Positions 35,733-43,680 of a stretch of DNA of 64,000 nucleotides are shown one piece after another. This DNA comes from Halobellus litoreus (GTDB lineage Archaea; Halobacteriota; Halobacteria; Halobacteriales; Haloferacaceae). The stretch covers positions 310,001-374,000 of the forward strand of contig NZ_JANHAW010000003.1 of NCBI RefSeq assembly GCF_024464595.1. The letters run 5' to 3'. The notes under the pieces are model-generated. The model searched no databases, was not told the origin of the DNA, and worked only from the letters and a program-made list of their open reading frames with translations. The translations under genes and the position numbers were made by a program. Each line of letters starts with the position of its first letter. Position 1 is the first letter of the stretch.

Positions 35733-38700
35733 TCAGACGATCGCGTCCGCCAGCATCTCGACCGGATGCGGCGGTTCTTCTTCCCCGTCCCGGTCGCCGA
35801 GTTGCGCCCGGCAGGACGCACCGGGTGCGGTGAGGGTTTCCCCGTTCGAGGCATCGATCTGATCGTACAGGGTGCTCGCGACGGCTTTCGACATCGAATA
35901 GTGTTCGGCCTCGTAGCCGAAGGACCCGGCCATCCCACAGCAGCTCGAATCGAGCGCGTCGACGTCGTATCCCGCCCGCCGCAGGACGCCGACCGCGTGG
36001 TGGTCCTTCTTCGTCGACTTCTGGTGACAGTGGCCGTGGTAGGTCAGCGCTGTCGACGGCGCTCCAGCGGTCACCCCGTCGCGCTCCAGCAGGCGGAAGG
36101 TGTCGAAGTACTCCATCACGCCGTAGGTGTTGCCGGCCACCCGCTCGGCATCCTCGCCCGACAGCAGGTCCAGGTAGTCGTGCTGGAACATCACCGCATC
36201 GGAGGGTTCGACGACGACGACGTCCCACTCGCCGCCGACGAGCGGCGCGAGGGCGTCGACGTTCTGACGCGCCTTTTCACGCGCCATATCGACGAACCCC
36301 TTCGAGTGCGGTGGTCGCCCGGAACCGGTGACGTCGTCGGGAATCTCCACGTGCACGTTCGCCGCCTCCAGCGCTCGGACGGCAGCCTTTCCGGCCTCAG
36401 GATGGTTGTAGTTCGTGTACGTGTCGGGGAAGAGGTAGACCTTCGAGTCCGCTGCCGATTCGCTCACGGTCGCCCCGCCGCGCGAATCGAACCAGTCGAC
36501 GAAGGAGACGCGGTGGAACCGCGGCAACTCCCGCTCGCTGGAGATACCGAGAGCCTTCTCCATCGCGAGACGGGCACCGGGCAGCTCCGGAAGGAGGTTC
36601 GAGAGCGGCGCGAAGGCGCTCCCGACCTTCGAGAGGGCACCCACGTTGGCGAAGACCTTGTCGCGGAGGCTCGACCCGTTCCGCTGGTGGTACTCGTGGG
36701 TCACTTCGGCCTTCATCTTCGCCATATCGACGCCGCTGGGACAGTCCTTCAGGCAACCCTTACAGCCGATACAGAGATCCAGAACTTCCTCAACGAACTC
36801 GTCTTCGAACTGTTCGCCGTCGGAAATCTCGCCGCTCATCGCCTGTCGGAGCATGTTCGCCCGGCCGCGCGTCGACTGGATCTCCTCTTCGGCGGCCCGA
36901 TAGGTCGGACACATCACGCCGCCGGTCGTCTCCTGCGGGCCGCGACAGCCGGCACAGCCGTGACAGAGCTCCGCCATCCCCTGAAAGCCGTTCTCGTTGT
37001 CCCACTCCATCGCCGGGTCGAAGTCGGCGTCGAACTCGTAGTCGGGGGAGAACCGGAGATCCTCGGTCATCTCGTGCGTCGCGGTCGCGGCCGCGTCGTC
37101 GGGTCGCACTTCGTCGGGCGCGTAGCCGCAGACGTTGCCGGGGTTGAGCAGCCAATCGGGATCGAACGCGGTTTTCAGCCGTCGGAACTCGGCCCAGAGT
37201 TCGTCGCCGCAGAGCTTCCGGTTCCACTGCGTCCGCGCGCGACCGTCGCCGTGTTCACCCGAGACCGATCCGCCGTACTTCACCACGAGATCGGTCACTG
37301 CGTCGGCGATGGCCTCGAAGGTCTCGACGCCCTCGGCCGTCTTCGTGTTCACGAGCGGGCGGATGTGGAGGACGCCGGGGCCGGCGTGGGCGTAGTAGGA
37401 GGCGAACGTGTCGTGGTCGTCCAGAATCTCCTGGAAGTCCGAGACGTACGCCGGAAGGTTCTCCGCCGGGATCGCCGTGTCCTCGATGTAGGCGATGTGC
37501 TTCTCGTCGGTGGTCCGCGACAGGAGGATCGGGAGCCCCGACTTGCGCATCTTCCAGAACTTCGCGCGCGTCTCCGCGTCGTGAGCCTCCATCGCGTCGA
37601 CCGCGGTCCGCGCCGTGTCCGTCGTCACCGCGCCCTCGCCGGGCGAGCGGTCAGTCGACGCGTCGGGCACTCGGTCGTCGACGAGCTCAGCCACCTGCTG
37701 GCGGCCGTGCTCGTCGTCCTCGGCGTAGAACTCCACCAGCAGCACAGAGTCCGTTCCAGAGGGCAGCGTCTCGACGACGTCGGCGAACTCCGGCGTCTCG
37801 CGGGCGAGATCCAACAGCACGTCGTCCATCACCTCCACGGCCGCGGGGTCGTGTTCGAGAATCGGAGCGACGTCCTCCATCGCGTCGAGGACGTCGTCGT
37901 AGGTGAGAAGCGCCACCGAGGCGGTGTTCGGGATCGGCTCCAGCGACACCGTCGCTTCGGTGACGATGCCGAGCGTCCCCTCCGATCCGGCGAGGAGTCG
38001 CGCGAGGTTGACCGTCTCCGGTTCGCTCTCGGGGTCGACCCCGGAGTCGTCCGGGAGTCGGCGCTCGCCGCGCATCTCGTCGACGAGCATATCGAGGTTG
38101 TACCCCGAGACGTTCCGTTTCAGATCGGGGTACATTTCGGCGATTTCATCGGCCTCCTCGTCGAGAGTGCGAGAGACAGCCGCGTAGATCCGCTCTTCGA
38201 GCGTCCCCTCCGGATCTCCCTCCTCGCGGAGGGTGTCGACGGCGACCTCCCCGAAGGTCGTCACGGTCCCGTCGGAGAGGACCACCTCCACGGATTCCAG
38301 GTAGTAATCCGTCTTGCCGTAGCGCAGCGAGTGCGCGCCCGTGGAGTTGTTGCCGATCGCCCCGCCGAGTGCCGATTTGTCCCCCCACGCCGGATCGGGC
38401 GCGAACTTCAGGTCGTGGCGTTCCAGGGCCGCGTTCAGGTCGCCGAGTCGGATGCCGGCCTGCGCCGTCGCGGTCCCGGCGTCGGGATCGACTTCGAGCA
38501 GTGACCCCAGCCCCGGCATCAGGTCGAGGACGACGGCTTCGTTCACCGTCTGTCCGGCCAGGCTGGTGCCGCCGCCGCGGGGGAGCACCGGAATCCCCTC
38601 GGCGGCGCAGTACTCCATCGTGTTCGCGACGTCCGCGGTCGACGTCGGCATCACGACCCCGATCGGCGTCCGCTCGTACGCCGAGGCGTCGGTGGCGTAC

Positions 38701-38852
38701 AGCTGTCGGGAGTACGTGTCGAACCGGACGTCGCCGTCGACGACGGATTCGAGGTCCGCGACCAGGTCCGGGCGCTCGACGTCGTCACTGACGTAGTCGT
38801 AGTTCCCCGTCGTGGCGGGATCAGTACCATCTGCGCGCGAATTCGAAGCCAT
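35733..38852 (-). CDS. Fused FAD-binding/iron-sulfur D-lactate dehydrogenase (Dld type)
   Basis: A 1039-residue three-part enzyme. A PCMH/VAO-type FAD domain comes first (VLPRGGGTSLAGQTVN near residue 90, GGAIGNNSTGAHSLRYG near 164), then the FAD-oxidase C-terminal domain (GEHGDGRAR). Next is a two-cluster ferredoxin-like part (CHGCAGC and CIGCKGCLKDCPSGVD) and two CCG-type Cys-rich domains (one with SSCCGMAGSFGYE). It oxidises D-lactate or a related 2-hydroxyacid and delivers electrons to the quinone pool. It lies 101 bp downstream of the lactate permease gene on the same strand, so permease and dehydrogenase form one operon. Glycolate is an alternative substrate. Confidence 0.9.
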   Translation of the reverse strand: MASNSRADGTDPATTGNYDYVSDDVERPDLVADLESVVDGDVRFDTYSRQLYATDASAYERTPIGVVMPTSTADVANTMEYCAAEGIPVLPRGGGTSLAGQTVNEAVVLDLMPGLGSLLEVDPDAGTATAQAGIRLGDLNAALERHDLKFAPDPAWGDKSALGGAIGNNSTGAHSLRYGKTDYYLESVEVVLSDGTVTTFGEVAVDTLREEGDPEGTLEERIYAAVSRTLDEEADEIAEMYPDLKRNVSGYNLDMLVDEMRGERRLPDDSGVDPESEPETVNLARLLAGSEGTLGIVTEATVSLEPIPNTASVALLTYDDVLDAMEDVAPILEHDPAAVEVMDDVLLDLARETPEFADVVETLPSGTDSVLLVEFYAEDDEHGRQQVAELVDDRVPDASTDRSPGEGAVTTDTARTAVDAMEAHDAETRAKFWKMRKSGLPILLSRTTDEKHIAYIEDTAIPAENLPAYVSDFQEILDDHDTFASYYAHAGPGVLHIRPLVNTKTAEGVETFEAIADAVTDLVVKYGGSVSGEHGDGRARTQWNRKLCGDELWAEFRRLKTAFDPDWLLNPGNVCGYAPDEVRPDDAAATATHEMTEDLRFSPDYEFDADFDPAMEWDNENGFQGMAELCHGCAGCRGPQETTGGVMCPTYRAAEEEIQSTRGRANMLRQAMSGEISDGEQFEDEFVEEVLDLCIGCKGCLKDCPSGVDMAKMKAEVTHEYHQRNGSSLRDKVFANVGALSKVGSAFAPLSNLLPELPGARLAMEKALGISSERELPRFHRVSFVDWFDSRGGATVSESAADSKVYLFPDTYTNYNHPEAGKAAVRALEAANVHVEIPDDVTGSGRPPHSKGFVDMAREKARQNVDALAPLVGGEWDVVVVEPSDAVMFQHDYLDLLSGEDAERVAGNTYGVMEYFDTFRLLERDGVTAGAPSTALTYHGHCHQKSTKKDHHAVGVLRRAGYDVDALDSSCCGMAGSFGYEAEHYSMSKAVASTLYDQIDASNGETLTAPGASCRAQLGDRDGEEEPPHPVEMLADAIV

Positions 38853-38953: not shown

Positions 38954-40723
38954 TCAGAAGACCCCCGGGAACAGCACGTAGCTGAACAGCAGCGTCAGGA
39001 GCCCGGTCGCCGTCCCGTAGTACAGCAGCGGGATCAGTTCGAGGCGGATGACGCGACCCTCCTCGCCGACGAGGCCGACGACCGCGAGCGCGGCGACGAC
39101 GTTGTGAACGGCGATGAGGTTGCCGATCGCGCCGCCGACCGCCTGGGCGCCGAGCATCAGCGTGTGTGAGGTGCCGATCTGGTCGGCGACGCCGTACTGG
39201 AAGGTTCCGAACAGGATGTCAGAGACCGTGTTCGATCCGGCGAGGAACGCACCGAACGCGCCGACGAAGGCGGCGAAGAAGGGGTAGACGCCGCCCGCGA
39301 CGCCGGCCATCCCTTCGGAGAGGACGATGAGCATACTGTCGGTTCCGGTCGCTGATCCCGACTGAAGCATTATCTGGACCGTCGCGACGGCGAATAGCAG
39401 TGCGACGACCGCCGGGGCGACCTTTTCGATCGTCTCCGCCCAGGCGGCCTTGATCTCCGTCCCGTCCATCCCGTGGAGGGGGATGGTGACGAGGTGAACG
39501 GCGACGAACACCGCGCCCGGCAGGTACAGCAGAGCGAAGTCGTTCGTGAGTCCCGTGCCGAGGATCGTCTCCTGGACGAACGGCAGGGCCGCGAGGTCGC
39601 TCCAGGCCAGCGTGAATACGTCCATCGTGACGAACGACTGAACGGGGTCGATGACGCGGGTGACGACGAGCAGGAGCGCGACTAGCGCGTACGGCGTCCA
39701 GGCCTTCCAGAGCGCCATTCCACCCGTGGGGACGCTCGACTGAACCGTACCGCCGTCGGCGGCGACGGCGACGTCGTCGCTGGTCGACTCGCCGGGCTGG
39801 ATCTCGCCGATCCAGTGGTCGGGCCACGCTTCCTGGGGCTCGAAGTCCCACTCCTCGTCGGGGTGGAAAAAGCCGGCCTTGAGCGCACTGACCGTAACGA
39901 GCAGGCCGATCATCGACCCGAGAAGACCGGGGAACTCCGGCCCGAGGAAGTACGCGGTCAGGAAGTACGGCACCGAGAACGAGGCCCACGCGAACAACGT
40001 AAGCGGCAGCACTTCGAGCGCGGGGCGAATCGACCGCTCCTCGCCGAAGAAGCGGGTCATCATCGCGACGCCGATGAAGGGGAGCGCGATGCCCACGATC
40101 ACGTGGTAACTCGCGGCCCACAGCGCGATGTCGGCCACCCAGGTCGCGATGTCGGGGTAGGTCCCGCTGCCCACGACGTCGGCGGTGATCGTCTCGACGC
40201 TCTCGAAGATGTCGATCATCCCGATGATGAGCGGGGTCCCGACCGCGCCGAACGTGATCGCCATCAAGTTGCCCGTGAGCGCGACGACGACGGCCGCGAG
40301 CGGCGGGAAGCCGAGTCCCACCAGAAGCGGTCCGACGATGGCCGCGGGGGTCCCGAAGCCGGCGGCGGCTTCGATGAACGATCCCATCAGGAACACGAGA
40401 AGCACGACCTGCACGCGGCGGTCCTCGCTGACGGAGGCGAAGCCGGCGTTGATCGCGTCGAACGCGCCCGTCTGCTTGAGCGTGTACAGCAGCAGGATCG
40501 CGCCGAAGACGATGTAGAGGATGTTGGCCGCGGTGATGAAGCCGTTTATCGTCGCGGCGGCGATCCACGTTCCGTTCATTCCCCACCCGACGACGCCGGC
40601 CGCGACCGCGACGACCCACGCCACCGGCATCGTTCGCGTCGCGGGCCAGTAGAAGCCGACCATCAGCACCGCGATAGTCAGGAGCGGCAGCAGCGCGACG
40701 AGCGTGTCCACCGCGCTAACCAT
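38954..40723 (-). CDS. lctP: L-lactate permease family transporter
   Basis: A 589-residue membrane protein with about 13 helices and the LctP/LldP markers: FMGSFIEAAAGFGTPAAI-type motif (here FLMGSFIEAAAGFGTPAAIV) near residue 110, AGSNTVSDILFGTFQ near 485 and GNLIAVHNVVAALAVVG near 530. It imports lactate or glycolate with protons or sodium. ATG 40723 has GGAG nine bases upstream; a TTG nine bases earlier is less likely. The TATA box lies 85-95 nt upstream, so the mRNA has a leader of about 65 nt that contains a short ORF. It is co-directional with the fused lactate dehydrogenase. Confidence 0.93.
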   Translation of the reverse strand: MVSAVDTLVALLPLLTIAVLMVGFYWPATRTMPVAWVVAVAAGVVGWGMNGTWIAAATINGFITAANILYIVFGAILLLYTLKQTGAFDAINAGFASVSEDRRVQVVLLVFLMGSFIEAAAGFGTPAAIVGPLLVGLGFPPLAAVVVALTGNLMAITFGAVGTPLIIGMIDIFESVETITADVVGSGTYPDIATWVADIALWAASYHVIVGIALPFIGVAMMTRFFGEERSIRPALEVLPLTLFAWASFSVPYFLTAYFLGPEFPGLLGSMIGLLVTVSALKAGFFHPDEEWDFEPQEAWPDHWIGEIQPGESTSDDVAVAADGGTVQSSVPTGGMALWKAWTPYALVALLLVVTRVIDPVQSFVTMDVFTLAWSDLAALPFVQETILGTGLTNDFALLYLPGAVFVAVHLVTIPLHGMDGTEIKAAWAETIEKVAPAVVALLFAVATVQIMLQSGSATGTDSMLIVLSEGMAGVAGGVYPFFAAFVGAFGAFLAGSNTVSDILFGTFQYGVADQIGTSHTLMLGAQAVGGAIGNLIAVHNVVAALAVVGLVGEEGRVIRLELIPLLYYGTATGLLTLLFSYVLFPGVF

Positions 40724-40787
40724 GCCGTTCAACTCCGTGATCTATGCCAGTCGATTCCGTTCCAGGTCCGTTCCTGTTTCCGTGCAT
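40716..40787 (-). CDS. Possible 23-codon upstream ORF in the lctP leader
   Basis: The minus-strand TATA box TATATAAC (about 40812-40820) is centred about 30 nt before an ATG at 40787. That ATG opens a 23-codon, Gly/His-rich, out-of-frame ORF whose stop (TAG, 40716-40718) overlaps the lctP start (ATG at 40723). The transcript should begin close to this ATG. It could be a leader peptide whose translation affects lctP, or an accident of sequence. Confidence 0.3.
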   Translation of the reverse strand: MHGNRNGPGTESTGIDHGVERHG

Positions 40788-41087
40788 CGTGAGCTATTCG
40801 ACCCAACTATTGTTATATATAGTTATCGTTCATCGCGGATCCGGCCGGTGCCACCGGCTTTCCGAACGCCCGGTCCACGACGCCACTACAGTCGTGTAAT
40901 GAGGGCATAAATCGGAGTATTACGCCCCAAATCCCGTATTTTGGGTGTATTATGGTCGTCTCCAGTATCGGCGTCGACGACCTGTCGAGAGTACCAGTAA
41001 ACACGTGTGAAAAGGATGTGTGCACGTGTGTCGTGGCGTTTCTCACGAGTGTAAAGGCTTATACTCTCGTGTGAAGAGGGAATACCT
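40724..41087. promoter_or_regulatory. Control region between lctP and its divergent regulator
   Basis: About 360 bp with several signals. These are the lctP TATA box (40812-40820), an imperfect inverted repeat CCCAAAT-CCCGT-ATTTTGGG (40926-40945) in an AT-rich patch, and the regulator TATA box CTTATAC (41058-41064). Four tandem repeats flank or overlap the last of these. Apart from the short leader ORF no gene is seen. Confidence 0.6.
41002..41079 (+). repeat. Four-copy operator-like repeat with 21-22 bp periodicity
   Basis: CACGTGTGAAAAGG (41002), CACGTGTGTCGTGG (41023), CACGAGTGTAAAGG (41044) and CTCGTGTGAAGAGG (41066) start 21, 21 and 22 bp apart, that is two helical turns. Copy 3 abuts the TATA box of the regulator and copy 4 covers the bases between TATA and its start. 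A regulator bound to one DNA face would fit. Confidence 0.7.
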
Positions 41088-41708
41088 GTGACCGACGACG
41101 CTCGCGCGCGCTCCAGGAACGAGCACGGCCAGTACGTCGACCGGATCCCGCTCGATCGGGTGATAGCGGTGTTCGAGGAGCGTGAGGACCAAGCGCGGCC
41201 GCTGACTGCCTCTGACGTGATGGAGGCGCTCGACTGCTCTCGGCGGACCGCTCACAACAAACTCAACGAACTCGAAGAGCGGGGCGACCTGAAGACCCGG
41301 AAGGTCGGGGCGCGCTCGCGGGTGTTTTGGACGCCGATTCCGAGCGAGTCGGCGACGGCGAAAGCCGACGCCAAGAACCGAGAACCCACCGCGTCCGCGG
41401 CTGAGACCGACGATGACGCCGTCGACGAGCGTCCGGCCGTCTCCGAGGCGATCGCCGACGCCGACCTCCCCGGGAGCGGGCCGATGCTCGACGCGCGACG
41501 GGAGGCGCTGTCGGCGGCCTACGAGTACCTCGCGGAGCATCCGGAGGCGAAAAAGGCCGACTTCCTGCGGGACGTCTACCACGAGTATCCGGCGGGCTTC
41601 GAGTCGGCCGAGGGATGGTGGAACGCCATCCAACCGGCGCTGAAGCAACTGCCGGGGGTCAACCCGCCCAAGGAGCGGGGACACATTTGGCACTTCCTGG
41701 GCGGGTAG
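41088..41708 (+). CDS. Winged-helix regulator next to lactate genes
   Basis: A 206-residue protein with an N-terminal winged helix (about residues 10-80, LTASDVMEALDCSRRTAHNKLNELEE as the helix-turn-helix). An acidic linker follows, and then a second conserved region ending in EGWWNAIQPALKQLPGVNPP and HIWHFLGG. The GTG start is 27 nt from a TATA box (CTTATAC) embedded in four tandem repeats, so it is probably leaderless and autoregulated. Divergence from lctP suggests it controls lactate uptake and oxidation. The family has no name I can assign with certainty. Confidence 0.8.
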   Translation: MTDDARARSRNEHGQYVDRIPLDRVIAVFEEREDQARPLTASDVMEALDCSRRTAHNKLNELEERGDLKTRKVGARSRVFWTPIPSESATAKADAKNREPTASAAETDDDAVDERPAVSEAIADADLPGSGPMLDARREALSAAYEYLAEHPEAKKADFLRDVYHEYPAGFESAEGWWNAIQPALKQLPGVNPPKERGHIWHFLGG

Positions 41709-41793: not shown

Positions 41794-43680
41794 ATGGATT
41801 CCGACTCGACCGACGACGGCCGGTCCTCCGCTCCGTCAGGAGGCGATCCGTCTCGGTGGGGCGGCCCCGACGCCGACGCACCCGCTGCCGCTGACGACGA
41901 GAGAGCGGCAGAGGAGAGTTCGGAACCGGGCGATCCCGATTCGGGGGACCGTCACGCCGGCCCCTCCGGCGGCGACGACGTGTACGCCCCGGAAGTGGAG
42001 GGACGACAGTACCGCGGGACGTGGTATCTCCCCCTGCGCTACGACGAACTCAAACGGGCCGGCGACACCGACGAGCACCCCGACCGGGGAACGGGCGGCG
42101 CGTTTCGGCTCACCGACCTGCCCCGGGTCCCGCGCGTCGGCCACATCGTCGGTCCGTCGGCGATCATGCTCGGGGCGTCGCTCGGGAGCGGCGAGACGCT
42201 CTTCTGGCCGGTTCTGACCTCGCAGTACGGGTGGACGCTCCTCTGGGCGTTCGCCGTCGGAGTGCTGACCCAGTTCGTCATCAACACCGAACTCCAGCGG
42301 TGGACGCTGGCGACGGGTGAGAGCGTCTTTCGCGCGTTCGCTCGCGTGGCAGACTACTGGCCGTGGCTGTTCCTCGCCGGCGGGCTGATCAGCCTCGGCT
42401 GGCCCGGGTGGGCGGCCGGCGCGGCGCGGGTCGGGACGACGGCCCTCGGGATCGGCGGAGCCGTCGACCTCCTCGGGGTCACGCTGGCGACGTGGAAACT
42501 CGTCGCGGTCGGCCTGATGGTCCTGATCTGGCTCTCCTATCAGGTGTCGTCAGTGATGTACACCGCCGTCGAGGTGTTCCAGATCGGCCTGCTGTTCGTC
42601 TCGATCGTCGCCGCCGTGCTGTTGGTCGGCGTGTCGGGCTCGTGGATCGAGTTCGCCGACCTCCCCGCAGCGGGGGCCGCCGTCGGGACGCTCCCGTCTG
42701 ACCTCGGCATCGCCGTGTTCCTGGGCGGACTCGCGTTCGCCGGCGCGGGCGGGTACCTGAACCTCTCACAGAGCCTCTGGGCCCGCGAGAAGGGCTACGG
42801 GATGGGGAACTACCAGGGGCGCGTGAAGAACCCGTTCCACGACGAGGACCCGGAACCGATCGAGCGCGACGGCTTCAGCTTTCCGCCGACGCCGACGAAC
42901 CTGAAGCGGTGGCGGGAATGGTGGCGGGTCGTCCAGCTCGAACACCTGCTGACGTTCGTCGTCGGGCTGTTCGTGGTCGCGCCGGCGCTGATGAGCGTCG
43001 CCATCCGCTACGCCCCGGGGACCACCTCTGACGCCCTCGAGATGTGGCTCACGGACGTCGCACCCGCACTGGGCCCGATCGGGACCGTGCTCGTCTTCCT
43101 GGTGCTCTTCGTCGCGCTGTTCACCACCGAGTACGCGATCGTCGAGTCCTTCGTCCGCAACAGCGTCGACGCGATCTACGAGGCGTACGGTCGCGAGGCC
43201 GGCTGGGACCTGGAGACGCTCTTCTGGCGCGTTCTGACGGGGTTTTGCCTGTGGGGTATCGTCATCATCCTCGTCTTCACCTCGCCGTTCGAGGGTCGGG
43301 AACCGTTCTTCTTCCTCGTCGTCGGCGCGGCGATGTCGGGTGTGATGATGTGGCCATACACCGCGCTCGTTCTCGTGATGAACACGACTCGACTGCCAGA
43401 GCACCTCCAGCCGGGGTGGGCGCGAATCGCCGCGCTGTGGTGGGCGTCGGGCTTCTACGGTTACTTCAGCGTCCTCCTCGTCGCCGACACGCTCGTCGAG
43501 TTCGGGCTGCCGGCCTTCGGTGCCGCACCGCTGGTCGCGGGCAGTGAGGTCGGCGGCTACGCCCTCTGGGCCGTCTTCTTCGTCGTCCAGTCCTACGCCG
43601 TCGCGGTCTCCGCAGGCGCAAAGCGAAACGCCGCGGGAACAGTCGAAAACGCCGAGTTGGCGGCCGGGCGCTTCTCGTAA
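41794..43680 (+). CDS. Nramp-like transporter lacking canonical metal-site motifs
   Basis: A 628-residue membrane protein. The first ~80 residues are acidic and probably disordered, then about twelve helices follow. GPSAIMLGASLGSGETLFWP lies where Nramp proteins have the DPGN loop, and GGYLNLSQSLWAREKG where they have the helix-6 MPH motif. The overall LeuT-like layout resembles Nramp, but the Asp, Asn and Met ligands for manganese or iron are missing. It may therefore carry magnesium, another ion or an organic solute. It is downstream of the lactate regulator (85 bp) and could be in the same transcript. Confidence 0.65.
   Translation: MDSDSTDDGRSSAPSGGDPSRWGGPDADAPAAADDERAAEESSEPGDPDSGDRHAGPSGGDDVYAPEVEGRQYRGTWYLPLRYDELKRAGDTDEHPDRGTGGAFRLTDLPRVPRVGHIVGPSAIMLGASLGSGETLFWPVLTSQYGWTLLWAFAVGVLTQFVINTELQRWTLATGESVFRAFARVADYWPWLFLAGGLISLGWPGWAAGAARVGTTALGIGGAVDLLGVTLATWKLVAVGLMVLIWLSYQVSSVMYTAVEVFQIGLLFVSIVAAVLLVGVSGSWIEFADLPAAGAAVGTLPSDLGIAVFLGGLAFAGAGGYLNLSQSLWAREKGYGMGNYQGRVKNPFHDEDPEPIERDGFSFPPTPTNLKRWREWWRVVQLEHLLTFVVGLFVVAPALMSVAIRYAPGTTSDALEMWLTDVAPALGPIGTVLVFLVLFVALFTTEYAIVESFVRNSVDAIYEAYGREAGWDLETLFWRVLTGFCLWGIVIILVFTSPFEGREPFFFLVVGAAMSGVMMWPYTALVLVMNTTRLPEHLQPGWARIAALWWASGFYGYFSVLLVADTLVEFGLPAFGAAPLVAGSEVGGYALWAVFFVVQSYAVAVSAGAKRNAAGTVENAELAAGRFS

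Follow-up and report, generated by a model that had tools for sequence, protein, structure and literature searches.

A conserved array of predicted operators beside a winged-helix regulator gene at a haloarchaeal lactate locus

The lactate genes and the regulator

The window, that is the whole 64-kb stretch of DNA analysed here, contained a gene for a putative regulator (41088..41708, plus strand) and, divergent from it, the lactate permease gene lctP (38954..40732, minus strand; PF02652, E 5.6e-102). Nearby on the minus strand, positions 35733..38852 encoded an FAD/Fe-S dehydrogenase, a fused protein resembling D-lactate and 2-hydroxyacid dehydrogenases, with matches to PF02913, PF01565, Fer4 and CCG; its best NCBIfam match was YdiJ, under the cut-off of that family. 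The repeat array described below lay beside these genes, in agreement with the original prediction, which had placed it next to lactate permease and dehydrogenase genes. The most constant downstream neighbor of the regulator was a gene for a membrane protein of 628 aa (41794..43680, plus strand), which had no Pfam match and no match among PDB sequences, and which may be a transporter-like protein with lactate or a related acid as its cargo. Haloferax, Halobellus and others retained the genes for lctP, regulator, and membrane protein in this order. The membrane protein gene accompanied the regulator even where lctP was not adjacent (L008, L050, L055, L063, and L064), and two lctP genes flanked the regulator in G017, G085, G131, G318, G378, and G404.

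The regulator consisted of an N-terminal winged helix-turn-helix (wHTH), a disordered linker, and a conserved C-terminal domain without assigned function. In the AlphaFold model, residues ~20–85 had the wHTH fold and matched many wHTH chains (Z 8.5–10, rmsd mostly ~2 over 60–70 residues), these matches covering the N-terminal domain only. The recognition helix, CSRRTAHNKL, was invariant in 37 regulator orthologues. No Pfam or NCBIfam family was found above cut-off, all Pfam HTH matches being sub-threshold, while nothing significant emerged from a profile search of PDB sequences, and a Foldseek search returned nothing at E <0.001. None of the regulator families compared could accommodate the protein: there was no AsnC/Lrp match in Pfam (to E 0.1) or NCBIfam, and no GntR, FCD, or UTRA domain, as would be expected of an LldR/LutR-type GntR protein, among its Pfam matches. 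The NCBIfam HutC match reached 13 bits (cut-off 220), HTH_IclR 19.0 bits (cut-off 22), with no match to the effector domain, and TrmB 16.1 bits (cut-off 25.6). The wing domain also resembled the Zalpha domains that bind Z-DNA, which was taken as the common wHTH arrangement.

Tiled palindromic sites and promoter geometry

Four repeats had been predicted ahead of the regulator, and their starts at 41002, 41023, 41044, and 41066, with steps of 21, 21, and 22 bp, were confirmed (copy words CACGTGTG, CACGTGTG, CACGAGTG, and CTCGTGTG, respectively). When the whole window was searched for chains of words with at most two mismatches to CACGTGTG and steps of 20–23 bp, this was the only four-copy chain detected, and none occurred in 100 dinucleotide-shuffled windows. 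The copies had been described as operator-like repeats; they are real, but comparison of orthologue upstream regions revealed that each belongs to an imperfect palindrome in a 22-bp unit, the symmetric form CCNNTACACWCGWGTGTANNGG, tiled end to end. A direct-repeat reading was rejected, since the symmetric 22-bp model captured the sites. With palindromes of 22 bp, two-turn units cover the array without a break, and the spacing of 21–22 bp supports the earlier proposal that the copies lie on one face of the DNA.

An expectation-maximisation site model, built over 39 orthologue upstream regions, found 133 sites in them, or 3.4 each, compared to 0.05 each in dinucleotide shuffles. A ranking model trained without the three Halobellus loci was scanned over the 64 kb, and placed sites at 40994, 41058, 41036, and 40883 at ranks 1–4; copies 1, 3, and 4, which together held ranks 1–3, scored 25.4, 19.9, and 20.5 bits as listed. 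At 17 bits, ~0.5 sites per Mb are expected in random sequence of the window's composition. Four sites of at least 15 bits were observed in the intergenic region, and more than one such site was found in none of 5,000 shuffles. Chance or compositional repeats might be suspected, as high-GC haloarchaeal DNA is rich in CACGTG-like words and the window contained 236 loose matches; however, this explanation is refuted by the shuffles, the held-out ranking, the conservation across genera and the genome scans described below, leaving it a negligible probability.

Five operators were predicted, none of them assigned to a strand. Operator 1 (40994..41015; CCAGTAAACACGTGTGAAAAGG) was the strongest site, at rank 1, and its slot was filled in the Halobellus and Haloferax orthologues. 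Operator 2 (41015..41036; GATGTGTGCACGTGTGTCGTGG) was degenerate, at 6.4 bits and rank 8 in the window; its equivalent was likewise weak in L002 and L031, and well formed in the Haloferax slot. Operators 3 (41036..41057; GCGTTTCTCACGAGTGTAAAGG; rank 3) and 4 (41058..41079; CTTATACTCTCGTGTGAAGAGG; rank 2) completed the array. Operator 5 (40883..40904; CCACTACAGTCGTGTAATGAGG; 17.6 bits, rank 4) was a single site on the lctP side, with equivalents in both Halobellus and Haloferax. The original prediction had counted the four array copies correctly, but had missed this fifth site.

A TATA-like box for the regulator, TTATAC, was recognized from sequence and conservation at 41059..41064 (plus strand), ~26 bp before the GTG start. 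It sat where copies 3 and 4 meet, as the original prediction had placed it. In the aligned set, the GG tail of operator 3, which covers the expected BRE position, abutted the TATA box, and operator 4, located between this box and the start codon, began inside it. The AAAGGCTTAT register was invariant in the Haloferax/Halobellus alignment except for one A/T position in the TATA box. The start codon had been thought to lie one further period beyond copy 4, which holds only roughly, the actual distance from the centre of copy 4 being ~19.5 bp. Judging from its sequence, the regulator gene is probably leaderless, and these ~19.5 bp would probably reflect simply the TATA-to-start distance of such a gene.

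The divergent lctP promoter had a TATA-like box at 40813..40821 (minus strand; TTATATATA on the plus strand), conserved in the alignment, with operator 5 ~78 bp upstream of it. Haloferax and Halobellus also shared a strongly conserved stretch of ~45 bp between this box and the lctP start (40755–40800), in which the window repeats GGAACGGA on its minus strand. This element is possibly a separate operator or a leader RNA element.

Conservation of the sites and dependence on the regulator gene

The regulator gene was present in 70 of the 392 genomes sampled from the order, and sites preceded regulator orthologues in ~20 genera. A search upstream of orthologues had been suggested together with the original prediction, and the array was indeed present across genera. 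The number of sites per locus varied from one to six, with the two-turn spacing kept. In the orthologue set, 55 of the 70 spacings between neighbours were 21 or 22 bp, and most of those remaining were 41–44 or 64–65 bp, as if a site had dropped from a fixed grid. Haloferax loci represent one common architecture and were not regarded as independent; the 21–22 bp spacing recurred in Halobellus, Halegenticoccus, Halogranum, Halocatena, Halomicrococcus, Halomarina, Natrinema, Halomicroarcula, and others. Operators 1 and 2 might be independent remnants, with only operators 3 and 4 being of importance and the spacing resulting from descent instead of cooperativity, a reading consistent with the weakness of copy 2 in the window and sister species and with the shared architecture of the Haloferax loci. 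However, it appears improbable in view of the spacing that recurs in many genera and in Natrialbaceae arrays away from the regulator promoter, and of mid-array losses that leave gaps of two or three units.

The presence of sites depended on that of the regulator gene. Among lctP upstream regions from genomes lacking the regulator, sites of at least 9 bits were found in 0 of 20, whereas sites occurred in 9 of 9 upstream regions (eight of lctP, and one shared by regulator and lctP) from held-out genomes bearing it (Fisher exact ~1e-7, calculated by hand without correction for relatedness). When 12 genomes bearing the regulator were scanned in full, nearly all matches fell at the regulator/lctP locus, and scans of two genomes of the same genus without the regulator revealed no sites. 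In the window's own genome, no further site was detected beyond the locus, the sole LUD-domain gene (L098) included. A wider regulon was considered and rejected, the off-locus matches in other genomes (L107, L119, and L112) each standing alone and away from the lactate genes tested. Given that binding of the sites by the 41088 protein is a prediction, a different, unlinked regulator could in principle bind them and control the lactate genes, 41088 included. Nevertheless, site presence tracks the 41088 gene across genomes, and sites were found upstream of its orthologues even where lctP was not adjacent in the stretch examined (L008 and L050), making an unlinked regulator highly improbable.

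Two observations count against control of the regulator gene by these sites. No recognizable site was found upstream of the regulator in L051, L064, and the held-out L155, L157, and L163, and in Halogranum, Haloferacaceae XH8, and Salinigranum, operator 4 was missing or degenerate, and the position of operator 3 alone could also suit activation. In L051 (Natronomonas sp. LN261), where the usual operators were missing, a 21-bp unit, GAGCACCCCGATGGACAAAGG, was instead repeated about five times in tandem ~35–140 bp upstream of the regulator start, reaching the TATA-like ATTATACC. This repeat had the same two-turn period as the operator array, and was unrelated to it in sequence.

Proposed control and relation to known regulators

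LldR is a bacterial GntR-family protein, unlike the 41088 protein, for which no GntR match was obtained. LldR is lactate-responsive and, similar to the regulator studied here, is encoded with lactate permease and dehydrogenase genes (E. coli lldPRD; PMC10272880), a likeness that makes it a functional analogue only. In archaea, Lrp proteins recognize groups of palindromic sites set two or three helical turns apart on one face, and the gene for Ss-LrpB of Sulfolobus solfataricus is auto-regulated, its control region containing several palindromes that are bound by dimers (PMC2995911). The 41088 locus likewise had several palindromic sites at two-turn spacing in the gene's own control region, and the regulation of permease and central-metabolism genes by Ss-LrpB and archaeal Lrp was counted as a further likeness. 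Unlike Ss-LrpB, the 41088 protein had no Lrp/AsnC domain match and possessed a different, linker-joined C-terminal domain. At the level of architecture, which was compared here in place of operator alignments, it also differed in that the TATA box sat at the junction of two operators and the sites extended to the divergent lctP. The haloviruses PhiH1 and phiCh1 have haloarchaeal repressor-operator systems too (cited in PMC6471424), but these control viral lysogeny.

A limited literature search found no haloarchaeal lactate regulator and no comparable haloarchaeal operator. This fits the earlier statement that no haloarchaeal operator of such form had been described, although the archaeal Lrp proteins provide a precedent for its architecture. 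The sequence evidence presented here indicates that the operator array is real and conserved and belongs to a regulator that is so far uncharacterised; its architecture is known in kind, while the regulator protein and the motif are apparently undescribed. A regulator, its predicted operator, and its likely targets were obtained together, and the literature searched names no haloarchaeal lactate-responsive transcription factor.

In the reading that we consider likely, the array serves the winged-helix regulator 41088 as its operator region; this reading includes the whole of the following mechanism, in which direct binding, dimers, cooperativity, repression, the effector and the sign of lctP control are what we infer. 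The regulator would bind the 22-bp palindromes as a dimer. A regulator bound at operators 3 and 4 would occupy the promoter from the BRE/TATA region to the expected start, blocking TBP/TFB and polymerase and thereby repressing its own gene. For the divergent lctP and dehydrogenase genes, a common control element would be made up of the upstream operators plus operator 5, and lactate or a related metabolite would most likely release or switch this control. Autorepression, as originally proposed, is the best reading given the position of the TATA box where operators 3 and 4 meet, but it is incomplete, as the corresponding array in Natrialbaceae would serve lctP and LUD genes too. The array offers a ready-made, testable candidate switch for lactate use; its natural variation from one to six sites provides a ready set of constructs for studying cooperativity on an archaeal promoter, and a lactate-tuned promoter is a potential genetic tool for Haloferax.

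In several Natrialbaceae, lctP was located downstream of the regulator, and an array of mostly three to five sites lay upstream of lctP, between it and two LUD-domain genes where the flank was readable. Distances from this array were ~150–230 bp to the start of the first LUD gene and ~350–460 bp to the end of the lctP match. Lactate-utilisation (lut) operons contain LUD-domain genes of this kind (PMC3924224). The regulator gene in several of these genomes kept one operator, at the operator 4 position and overlapping a TATA-like sequence. Autorepression does not explain the Natrialbaceae array, which is distant from every start codon, and this counts against our main reading. Because it sits with the lctP/LUD genes and away from the regulator, the array appears to be a shared lactate control region and not only a means of autorepression.

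A dual regulator, repressing itself via operators 3 and 4 and activating lctP and the lactate dehydrogenase genes from the upstream array and the lctP-side site by looping or wrapping, would be consistent with the Natrialbaceae loci, in which the array and a single lctP-side site stay together ~97–120 bp apart with the regulator promoter elsewhere. Such a reading is also favoured by the archaeal Ss-LrpB, a dual auto-regulator with tiled palindromes (PMC2995911), and by the distance of operator 5 from the lctP TATA box, which is too great for simple occlusion. However, no site abutted the lctP BRE, where activators such as Ptr2 bind (PMC2995911), and the distance from array to lctP-side site varied from ~84 to 130 bp, with no clear support for helical phasing between them. 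Overall, we judge this dual role rather unlikely, and retain control through the operator array of 41088, with autorepression, as the preferred reading. More tentatively, the 41088 protein could represent an undescribed haloarchaeal regulator family for lactate use, in which dimers tile in a polymer-like manner along the end-to-end 22-bp palindromes and the array loops to a single site ~100–120 bp away, controlling lctP and, in Natrialbaceae, the LUD genes; if looping were true, it would be a case of long-range control, which is uncommon in archaea.

A conserved GTGAACGAACAGAACA-like element was also observed a short way upstream of the first LUD gene, immediately before the likely TATA box of the LUD genes, in L052, L053, L056, L057, L059, and L066. 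It is unlike the lactate operator, and may be the site of another regulator.
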